Positions 37,196 to 62,422 of a stretch of DNA of 64,000 bases are shown piece by piece (the first letter of the stretch is position 1; each line of letters starts with the position of its first letter). The translations under genes were made by a program, and so were the position numbers. Where the stretch lies: contig NZ_JAOAMV010000003.1 in assembly GCF_025154015.1 (NCBI RefSeq), positions 124,001 through 188,000 of the forward strand, read 5' to 3'. The stretch is from Tsuneonella litorea (lineage in GTDB: Bacteria > Pseudomonadota > Alphaproteobacteria > Sphingomonadales > Sphingomonadaceae). The notes beneath the pieces were generated by a model. The model was not told where the DNA came from, did no database searches, and was given only the letters and a program-made list of their open reading frames with translations.

Positions 37196-37657
37196 TCAGT
37201 CCTCGCTGGTTTCGTCGACCACGCGTTCGACGTGGGCGATGAATTCGGTGAGCTCGGCGATCGCCGAGTCGAGGTCGTCGCGCTGGCGCTTCATCTTGGC
37301 GACGTGTGCGCGGCACTTCTCGATCGTCACCCGGCGCTGCTCCGCGCGGTTGTCGCCGAGATCGTAGAGATCGATCATCTCGCGGATCTCGCCAAGGCTG
37401 AACCCGACGTTCTTGGCGCGCATGATCCACGCCAGCCGCGCGCGGTCACGCTTCGAATAGATGCGCGCCAGGCCCACCCGGCGCGGGGCGATCAGCCCCT
37501 CGTCCTCGTAGAAACGCAAGGCACGGGCAGTGCAGCCGAATTCCTCGGTAAGGTCGGAAATCGAGAATTGTTCGCGCGCGAGCAGGTCCGGGCGATCGAG
37601 ATGCGCACCGCCGTGTTCGGAAGGCGCGGCGGAGGTCTTGCGGTCGGGTGCGGCCAT
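37196..37657 (-). CDS. MerR family transcriptional regulator
   Basis: 153 residues with N-terminal winged [31 protein letters not shown], wing [17 protein letters not shown], and a dimer coiled coil ending the protein. No metal-binding cysteine pair at the C-terminus, so an acyl-CoA or small-molecule sensor of the LiuR type is more likely than a metal sensor. Directly precedes the acyl-CoA dehydrogenase, which it probably controls. Start ATG at 37657. Confidence 0.92.
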
Positions 37658-37689: not shown

Positions 37690-38070
37690 TCAAGTATTGA
37701 CGGGCCGGAGAACGTCACCCGCCAACTCGCGGTAGAAGCAGCTCGGCGCCCCGGTGTGACAGGCCGGCCCCGCCGCGCGACATTCGAGGACCAGCGCGTC
37801 CTGGTCGCAATCGACCAGGATCCGCTCGACGGCAAGGGTGTTGCCGGATGTCTCGCCTTTCATCCAGAGCCGGGCCCGCGATCGCGAGTGGAAATGGGCA
37901 AGCCCGGTTTCCCGCGTCTTCGCGAGCGCCTCAGCGTCCATGTGCGCCAGCATCAGGATCGCCCCGGTGTCCGCATCGGTCACGATGGCGGTCAGCAGGC
38001 CCGCTGCATCGAACTTAGGGGTGAACGGCGCGCGGTGCGCTTCGGACGGTATGTCAGAGGTTTGTTGCAC
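37690..38070 (-). CDS. hisI: Phosphoribosyl-AMP cyclohydrolase
   Basis: About 126 residues; third step of histidine synthesis. [42 protein letters not shown] and the zinc ligands in [11 protein letters not shown] with CHTG identify it. GTG at 38070 is the best start: longer codons upstream are not family-like. The start codon lies in the loop, and a GAGG in the stem, of an inverted repeat (see 38056-38087). Other his genes are absent here; hisE is not fused. Confidence 0.91.
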
Positions 38071-38087
38071 GATAACAACAGACCTCT
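38056..38087. promoter_or_regulatory. 12-bp inverted repeat over the hisI start codon
   Basis: AGAGGTTTGTTG (38056-38067) and CAACAGACCTCT (38076-38087) pair over 12 positions with one T-G mismatch and an 8-base spacer. The hisI GTG (38068-38070) lies in the spacer and the purine-rich AGAGG in an arm. It could be an operator for a dimeric repressor, or a hairpin that hides the hisI start; in the hisI-sense RNA one pair is C-A, in the opposite RNA it is a U-G wobble. Confidence 0.4.
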
Positions 38088-38156
38088 TCCAAAATCGGCG
38101 GCCTGGCAAGATGTCCCTTTGATGAATCCTGCAACAATGAGACACATCGCCTCGCA

Positions 38157-38371
38157 GCCCGCATGGGCCGCAAACCGGAACGCCGGTGCCGATAGAGCGC
38201 CAGGTTCAGGGACCGCCACCGGATGCACCGCGCCCGTTTGAGGGAACGGAGCGCGACTTCCGGAGGGCAGACGATTGAGGGATCGGACCAAGGCTGCCCA
38301 AGGGGGTGGCGGCCGGACGTCCAAAGAATTTCGTCACGGTGCGCCCGGGGTTTCGGCCCCGGGCGTTTCGT
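38157..38371 (+). ncRNA. Candidate structured small RNA, plus strand
   Basis: Sequence between hisI and comF (both minus strand; 331 bp without a gene) folds into a compact plus-strand RNA. A closing helix CCGCCACC/GGTGGCGG (38213-38220 with 38305-38312) encloses a 10-bp helix with one bulged A (38229-38238 with 38245-38255) and a stem GGGCAG/CTGCCC (38265-38270 with 38294-38299). A 5-bp hairpin (38074 to 38087 of 38100s region, i.e. 38174-38187) precedes it and a terminator follows. No protein-like frame. It has no SRP RNA, RNase P, tmRNA motif. The 5' end is unknown. Confidence 0.45.
38342..38371 (+). terminator. Rho-independent terminator, plus strand
   Basis: A perfect 9-bp stem CGCCCGGGG (38342-38350) / CCCCGGGCG (38357-38365) with loop TTTCGG, followed by TTTCGTTTG. 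The T run is only on the plus side, yet both flanking genes are on the minus strand, so it must end a plus-strand transcript starting in this gap. Confidence 0.7.
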
Positions 38372-38401
38372 TTGTGGGCCTGATCCTCGTGCGCCCGTGC
38401 C

Positions 38402-39154
38402 TTACGCCTCGTCGATCACCCGGGCGAAGCACGCCACCACGACCTTGCTCGCCCCTGCACGCTTGAGCGCGCGCACGCAGGCGTCGCTGGTCGCCCCGCT
38501 GGTCAGGACGTCGTCGACGAGGATGACCTGCGCGCCTTCGATCGCGTGCCGCCGCCGCCCCGTGACCGCGATTGCCCCCGCCAGCGTGCGCGCCCGGGCC
38601 TTCCGGCCGAGCCCGCCGAGCGCGGGCGTGCGCCGTATCCTCTTGAGCGCGTCCACGTGCAGCCGCGCGCCCGCCAGCCGCGCGATCTCGCGCGCGAGCA
38701 GGGCCGCCTGGTTGTATCCGCGCGCCCAGAGCCGCCAGCGGTGCAGCGGAACCGGAACGACGATCCACTCCCCTTCGAGTTGGGGTAGCCGGGCCGCGAT
38801 CAGCCGGGCGAGCATCGGGGCGAGCGCGATGCGGCGACCGTGCTTGAACGCCAGCACCAGCTTGCGCGAGCCCTCGCCGTAGAGGGTCCCTGCGGCGATC
38901 CCGTCGTGCCGCGGGGGGCGGGCGAGGCAAGGCGCACAGACTGCGCCTTCGCCGACCTGCGCCTCGCCGAACGGGCGCTGGCACTTCGCGCACGAGGGTT
39001 CGCCGGGGATGACGAGCGCGCTCCAGCATGCCGCGCACAGGCCGGTTTGCGCGCCGATCGCACCGCCGCAAAGCGGACAGCGTGGCGGGAAGACGAGGTC
39101 CACCAGCGGCGCCAGCCCCTGGCGAAAGGTTGCGGCAACGCTCACCCTTGCCAC
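38402..39154 (-). CDS. comF: ComF family protein
   Basis: A 250-residue protein with an N-terminal double zinc ribbon (CPLCGG, CAACW, CAKCQ, CAPC) and a phosphoribosyltransferase domain with the PRPP loop VILVDDVLTSGAT. Homologues take part in DNA uptake during transformation, linked to the replication restart helicase. GTG at 39154 or 39145. Divergent from the methyltransferase at 39184 with 29 bp between. No other competence genes are in view. Confidence 0.9.
   Translation of the reverse strand: MARVSVAATFRQGLAPLVDLVFPPRCPLCGGAIGAQTGLCAACWSALVIPGEPSCAKCQRPFGEAQVGEGAVCAPCLARPPRHDGIAAGTLYGEGSRKLVLAFKHGRRIALAPMLARLIAARLPQLEGEWIVVPVPLHRWRLWARGYNQAALLAREIARLAGARLHVDALKRIRRTPALGGLGRKARARTLAGAIAVTGRRRHAIEGAQVILVDDVLTSGATSDACVRALKRAGASKVVVACFARVIDEA

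Positions 39155-62346: not shown

Positions 62347-62422
<76 letters not shown>

Follow-up and report, generated by a model that had tools for sequence, protein, structure and literature searches.

The gap between hisI and comF of Tsuneonella litorea very probably holds a real, stand-alone gene (38154-38370, plus strand) for a non-coding RNA that is structured and about 215 nt long. The predicted RNA defines a family that is new to Rfam 15 and, judged by sequence comparison, is widespread in the Sphingomonadaceae in the GTDB sense. An earlier note had suggested a structured plus-strand RNA gene at this locus, and comparison with relatives supports it, both by a conserved fold and by compensatory change. 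The product probably acts in trans as a stand-alone regulatory RNA that presents three G-rich tracts.

The window, that is the whole stretch of 64,000 nucleotides that was analysed, corresponds to 124001-188000 of contig C26 in a 3.0-Mb genome (G000). The 331-bp gap between two minus-strand genes that the earlier note described is present, from the likely GTG start of hisI at 38070 to the stop of comF at 38402, and Pfam names the products of both open reading frames. Left of hisI, the window also carries a gene for a MerR-family regulator (37196-37657; PF13411, PF09278). The features of the locus are collected in the table.

Table. Features of the hisI-comF locus, in window coordinates; percentages of pairing and two-sided changes refer to 80 aligned loci unless A1 is named.
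Feature	Position	Strand	Description
hisI	37690..38070	-	Left neighbour, divergent from the RNA; open reading frame and PF01502 (PRA-CH); GTG start likely
Dyad TTGTTGCACGATAACAACA	38062..38080	+	Found in 80/80 aligned loci by a lenient fuzzy search (at most 4 substitutions)
CAAAATC block	38090..38096	+	At a fixed distance from the dyad in the consensus of 80 type I loci
Putative promoter	38119..38147	+	-35-like TTGATG, 38119-38124; -10-like, about 38141-38147; CTTT...TGG.A blocks at a fixed distance from the dyad
RNA gene, type I form	38154..38370	+	Predicted transcript of about 217 nt; covariance model and alignments
P1 hairpin	38154..38171	+	Two-sided changes in 6/6 pairs; 90.5% paired
P2 hairpin	38174..38187	+	Two-sided changes in 5/5 pairs, yet 69.5% of cells paired
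GCGCCAGGTTCAGGGA with G tract 1 (38207-38211)	38197..38212	+	Invariant or near-invariant columns
P3 variable hairpin	38229..38255	+	Present in the window; 60.8% of A1 cells paired
P4 clamp	38272-38282 with 38330-38338	+	TGAGGG (G tract 2, 38276-38281) with TTTCGTCAC; near-invariant core
P5 helix	38285-38289/38318-38322	+	Two-sided changes in 5/5 pairs; 96.9% paired
P6 helix	38292-38298/38308-38314	+	Loop AAGGGGG (G tract 3, 38300-38306); two-sided changes in 7/7 pairs; 91.1% paired
Intrinsic terminator	38341..38366	+	CGCCCGGGG..CCCCGGGCG, then TTTCG; loop of 4; 99.6% paired; two-sided changes in 7/10 pairs
comF	38402..39154	-	Right neighbour, convergent with the RNA; open reading frame with double zinc ribbon and phosphoribosyltransferase domains

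The conserved fold consists of the hairpins P1 and P2, a clamp (P4) that encloses P5 and P6, with AAGGGGG in the P6 loop, and then the terminator. It was assessed on a structure-free MAFFT alignment (A1) of 16 relatives, the window's own sequence included, which takes 16 of the 20 syntenic loci and omits L013, L016, L018 and L020 as divergent. On A1 the fold is 92.6% paired, and two-sided changes occur in 13 pairs compared with 6.1 in shuffles, with none of 500 shuffles reaching 13. The fold is likewise out of reach of all 500 shuffles on four of five measures, and on the fifth, the number of pair types, it is reached by 23 of them. Shifting the pairing partners by one to three columns lowers the pairing to 37-50%. 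The sequence islands of the first alignment are a GCAGYCC/GGGCYGC hairpin that varies in sequence, GCGCCAGGTTCAGGGA, GACGATGAGGGATCGG, GGGGG, TTTCGTCACG and the terminator.

A larger alignment (A3) takes 80 of 95 sources, 5 near-duplicates and 10 weak, partial or non-syntenic entries having been dropped; A4 keeps 75 of these 80 rows, the others having long inserts. Alignments A2 to A4 were fitted to the covariance model R1 and so favour its structure, whereas A1 is free of such fitting. On A3 the fold is 92.1% paired and two-sided change occurs in 33 of its 41 pairs; 408 two-sided compensatory cells are counted compared with 113.8 +/- 9.2 in shuffles. An APC-corrected G-test (our own implementation; effective number 72), calculated without a phylogenetic null, places predicted pairs at ranks 1-15 of 19,110 and at 18 of the top 20; rank 16 is an extension of P1, and rank 17 is the neighbour of a P4 pair. 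The two highest covariation scores among all column pairs fall in P6, and P5 and P6 are the strongest helices. The last P5 pair is C-C in the window's own sequence. Little covariation is seen in P4 because its core is nearly invariant; one outer pair is GC in 53 loci and CG in 7, and one inner pair is AU in 56 and UA in 8.

The shape proposed in the earlier note was a three-way junction, and its pairings do exist in the window: the closing helix (38213-38220/38305-38312), a 10-bp helix with a bulged A (38229-38255) and a 6-bp stem (38265/38299) can all be written there, and the small hairpin at 38174-38187 is P2 of the conserved fold. Among relatives, the closing helix is paired in just 45.3% of A1 cells and the 6-bp stem in 58.5%, and the junction as a whole is 58.7% paired, compared with the 92.6% of the alternative fold. 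That level of pairing is reached by 19 of 500 shuffles, its 24 two-sided cells by 17 of 500, and its covariation score is equalled by 206 of 500. Given the poorly paired closing helix and covariation no better than in many shuffles, the three-way junction was rejected as the conserved fold. The earlier note had named a change of helix partners without compensation as evidence against its proposal, and this is largely what the junction shows, whereas the conserved RNA itself shows compensation. The covariation analysis of homologous hisI-comF gaps, suggested in the same place, was run and is what established the RNA.

Two further pairings were considered. In the P2 region, the helix CC-GAAC/GTTC-GG is the minimum-energy choice and is 87.9% paired on A1, but it was rejected as the sole type I reading, given that it shows zero two-sided changes on that alignment. 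P2 and a helix like CC-GAAC/GTTC-GG, which is plausible in the second form of the RNA described below, may alternate. For P4, the register GACGA/TCGTC was rejected, as it is not retained in type I relatives; CG-TGA-GGG/TTCGTCACG is retained.

The plus-strand terminator, which had been described with a perfect 9-bp stem and a T run, is present, with a stem of 11 pairs (9 of them G-C) and a T run that is merely TTTCGTTT. Taken alone it proves little, because 0.6 such sites are expected from shuffles of the 701 bases in which one was found. With 200 dinucleotide shuffles for each strand, 197 fold less well than the plus strand (z -2.6) and 186 less well than the minus strand (z -1.6). A small protein whose gene begins with the conserved (A/T)TGAGGG has next to no chance of being the explanation. 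ATG, GTG or TTG stands at that site in 67 of 80 loci, but the frames range from 3 codons to past the stretch examined and share no length, and the helices covary; the small open reading frame was rejected on these grounds.

The blastn search with 38060-38400 gave matches in 21 of 60 genomes, the window's own included, and in 11 of 11 genomes of the genus, with hisI and comF both matched in the flanks of 20 of the 21 distinct first loci (L001-L021). In a wider set of 90 loci, 30 from the R1 search and 60 fetched for their diversity, which overlaps the first 21, tblastn places both genes beside the RNA in 85, neither in 4 and comF only in 1; comF adjoins the RNA in 86. R1 matches 197 of 397 family genomes at E<=0.01, representing 67 of 96 genera, with one match in 186 of these genomes and two in 11. 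Together with R3, a model of the second form, the union covers 332 of 397 family genomes (R1, E<=0.01; R3, E<=0.001), a count in which loose matches may include bare terminators. At stricter thresholds the union is 295 of 397 (E<=1e-6) or 243 of 397 (E<=1e-10), and 102 of 397 carry no R1 or R3 match at E<=1e-6.

Beyond the family, the signal fades. The model R2, made from 75 rows, matches 204 of 396 genomes of the order, and among the matches listed all lie in the window's family. In the class, R2 matches 16 of 385 genomes, of which 5 are in the window's family; the other 11 belong to other families, score E 2e-5 to 8e-3 in places where hisI and comF are absent, and were not counted as homologues. 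Of 18 genomes from other families of the order, 4 gave weak matches, with E between 0.002 and 0.09 and one confined to the terminator, and these were likewise not counted as homologous. A sequence-pattern scan of contigs returned at least 116 loci, at least 42 of which have both hisI and comF, with many others from unrelated taxa. Locus L202, on a contig labelled 'Actinobacteria bacterium 21-64-8', has hisI, comF and, with them, the terminator pattern and dyad of the RNA; the contig is probably mislabelled or misbinned. In another genome, R3 matches of identical score lie near both ends of one contig (G394:C1:1025-1190 and 3022841-3023006), and these may be one copy seen twice where the ends of a circular chromosome overlap.

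A second form of the RNA (type II) occurs in another gene context. A search with laxer filters covered 39 chosen genomes, 21 of them family genomes with no R1 match or a weak one, and gave matches in 12 of these 21 (E<=0.1). Of 32 loci tested, drawn from this search and from R3 and non-syntenic R1 matches, 26 have proS (21) or lolC (5) divergent on the 5' side; these 26 represent 20 genomes, six of which were fetched twice, and 9 of the 26 also carry a convergent pyrG on the 3' side. Neither neighbour is found at L259, L260 and L263, which belong to other families, at L265 or at the short piece L300, and L298 has a weak proS-like match only. The divergent form lies between proS and pyrG in two Zymomonas-like genomes, in one of which the gene order is proS, RNA, pyrG, secG and tpiA.

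Type II RNAs are shorter, with GGCC..GGTTCGGGGAGG, a hairpin that often has an AAAGGGG loop, AAGGGGG, a TGACGA/TCGTCA hairpin and the terminator; in several, TGACGA/TCGTCA pairs directly as a hairpin. Folding z-scores are -5.1 for L262 and -7.2 for L257. In L062, L121, L257 and L262, a short TGACG(A)/(T)CGTCA hairpin stands in place of the inner P5-P6 domain. Given that P5-P6 is replaced in the proS/lolC form, the architecture of the RNA has changed together with its genomic location. The covariance model R3 was built from ten type II RNAs; alignment A6 keeps 10 of the 13 rows of A5. At E<=0.001 R3 finds a match in 305 of the 397 family genomes, a count that includes several type I genomes whose listed match falls on their type I RNA and scores lower there.

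The dyad upstream of the RNA has the form TTGTTGCACGATAACCACA in most loci; in the aligned set of 80 it precedes P1 by about 92 bases, or by fewer in a few. When the 11 genomes of the genus were scanned with one mismatch allowed, the dyad was found once at the locus in each, with one extra match (G002), and a control with the backward pattern gave zero matches. In the window the dyad overlaps the likely GTG start of hisI (GTG CAA CAA on the minus strand), so that the annotation of the hisI start and the dyad are entangled at 38062-38080; the two are apart in, for example, L006. A dyad, mostly CTGTTGC..ACACAG, also precedes 14 of the 17 RNAs found away from hisI, and therefore it belongs to the RNA gene. 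The type II consensus of the dyad is drawn from these 14 loci, with no match in L265 and doubtful matches in L102 and L258, and it has no CAAAATC block.

Both forms of the RNA have a -35-like block (CTTT or GATGACA) about 55 bases from the start of the dyad and a -10-like block about 17 bases further. A sigma-70 consensus scan found no promoter at the locus. In a published study (PMC7566282), the promoter consensus of Z. mobilis is TTGNNN and TANNNN with a 17-bp spacer, which the TAG... of type II fits and the window's own -10 fits poorly. Given the fixed spacing from the dyad, we infer a promoter between the dyad and P1 that would start transcription near 38154. The spacing from dyad to promoter is the same in the hisI/comF and proS/lolC contexts, and its retention in the rearranged second form suggests that dyad, RNA and terminator travel together. 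The gene thus has its own terminator and its own upstream element, independent of any one neighbour, as expected of a stand-alone small RNA.

These observations bear on two explanations that require no separate RNA gene. That the region is only a conserved divergent promoter of hisI plus a terminator, without RNA function, would suit a dyad that adjoins the likely hisI start and an RNA known from sequence alone; this is highly improbable, given that P1, P2, P5 and P6, which lie between promoter and terminator, change in a compensatory way, that dyad, RNA and terminator are retained where hisI and comF are absent, and that the T run is present on the plus strand only. It is extremely improbable that the RNA acts in cis on a neighbour, as its leader, attenuator or 3' UTR element, or is antisense to comF. 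Only some 35 bases separate the terminator from the comF stop that follows on the opposite strand, but the neighbours are on the strand opposite to the RNA in both contexts (in the second, as read over 12 kb in a single proS/pyrG context) and differ between them. A riboswitch or attenuator is recognised by its place upstream of a same-strand gene, and both flanking genes here are on the minus strand.

A stand-alone RNA would be transcribed on its own and act in trans, with three conserved and mostly unpaired G-rich tracts, CAGGG, TGAGGG and AAGGGGG, as its working surface. They occur in 76 of 80 loci (CAGGG at 38207, loose pattern), 74 of 80 (TGAGGG at 38276) and 78 of 80 (AAGGGGG at 38300), and the AAGGGGG of the P6 loop averages 75% unpaired over 78 minimum-energy folds. 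In the fold of the Zymomonas-like L257, GAGGGG and AAGGGG lie in two hairpin loops and the third tract, AAGGGGG, is mostly unpaired; in type II, where the RNAalifold structure pairs it, AAGGGGG may not be free. The simplest use of such tracts would be pairing to stretches rich in C, in mRNAs or in other small RNAs, and base pairing is tentatively suggested by their conservation as the mechanism.

Other uses of the tracts can be considered. The RNA could capture a protein through its G-rich tracts, as 6S RNA does RNA polymerase or CsrB-type RNAs do CsrA, a somewhat unlikely role to which the strong conservation of the fold and of several G-rich motifs, the single match in most genomes (186 of 197) and the conserved upstream element would be suited. 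Against it, 6S RNA sits elsewhere in the genome and there is no candidate protein; for the CsrA type, the best PF02599 score in the genome is 15.8 bits compared with a cut-off of 27, and relatives do not preserve the GGA core of the first motif. A CsrA sponge of the CsrB/RsmZ type was rejected, given the lack of a CsrA above cut-off in the genome.

It is very unlikely that the RNA is a decoy, in which loops that resemble a Shine-Dalgarno sequence (AAGGGGGU) occupy the anti-Shine-Dalgarno site of the 30S subunit or soak up CU-rich small RNAs such as suhB/alpha-r14. AAGGGGGTGG at 38300 can form 10 contiguous pairs, with G-U allowed, with the 3' end of 16S rRNA, and suhB is encoded in the genome. 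However, the share with at least 8 contiguous pairs is 52.5% among 80 type I RNAs and 41.3% among shuffles, and for 12 type II RNAs the two figures are 33% and 32%; shuffled suhB (85 nt; mononucleotide shuffles) pairs as well or better in 231 of 300 trials. Both the suhB sponge and the Shine-Dalgarno decoy were rejected, as their pairing is near the shuffle level.

Whatever its partner, the RNA might be a widespread, usually single-copy, lineage-specific core RNA with a general cell function like that of 6S, rather than a regulator of a few mRNAs, which is a fairly unlikely proposal. The three G tracts would then act on a fold that was rebuilt upon the move between proS/pyrG and hisI/comF, and the upstream dyad and the promoter spacing would have stayed unchanged through that move.

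Most genomes searched in a large family of bacteria carry the predicted RNA; its fold is backed by hundreds of compensatory cells, and Rfam 15 has no match for it. The RNA offers a defined target for knock-out or pull-down in culturable strains, and the covariance models would allow its annotation. Within the genus the dyad is hardly found away from the RNA gene, suggesting a dedicated regulator. The two gene contexts, with their differing architectures, provide a natural test of which parts of the RNA matter.

Comparison with known families was made at several levels. The earlier note had proposed a search of Rfam and had set the RNA apart from SRP, RNase P and tmRNA, and both points are borne out: no Rfam 15 family reached its gathering score at the locus, and none of those three RNAs matched there. 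Across the whole window the sole match at gathering score is a tRNA at 62347; six matches in 37900-38600 at E<=10 all lie far under their gathering scores, and 11 relatives of both types gave one match at E<=0.5, of 23.7 bits compared with a gathering score of 100. RNase P RNA, searched in the window, has no match there. Bacterial small SRP RNA (RF00169) has no match at the locus; it is above cut-off at C29:71513-71607, with a weak second match on C29. Alphaproteobacterial tmRNA (RF01849) matches above threshold at C22:377677-378024, and in the window ARAGORN finds tRNA-Lys only. A literature search over titles and the starts of abstracts, with few subscription papers and no supplements, found no description of this RNA.

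The Zymomonas form might coincide with a small RNA of that genus already detected by northern blot. Zms6 (454669-454972), which is longer than the predicted RNA, might fall in the proS-pyrG region of ZM4. Northern-blot support for the Zms and sRNAscout small RNAs of Z. mobilis, a member of the family, is given in two reports (PMC6970203, PMC7064620). Base-pairing small RNAs that depend on Hfq are marked by Hfq binding and a long U tail at the 3' end; the 3' T tail is TTTTTTT in the Zymomonas-like form compared with TTTCGTTT in the window. 6S RNA (RF00013) is likewise structured, about 200 nt long and represented by one match in the genome; it differs in lying on another contig (C22:104223-104392, 64.6 bits, above threshold), with none in the window. 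The suhB/alpha-r14 RNA (RF00519) matches at G000:C11:290132-290212 (L283) with 49.2 bits and contains a CCTCTCCC stretch. Like the RNA described here, it is a small alphaproteobacterial RNA with its own terminator and has one match above cut-off in the genome; unlike it, suhB lies on contig C11 and has another sequence, with a single strand that is C/U-rich rather than G-rich.
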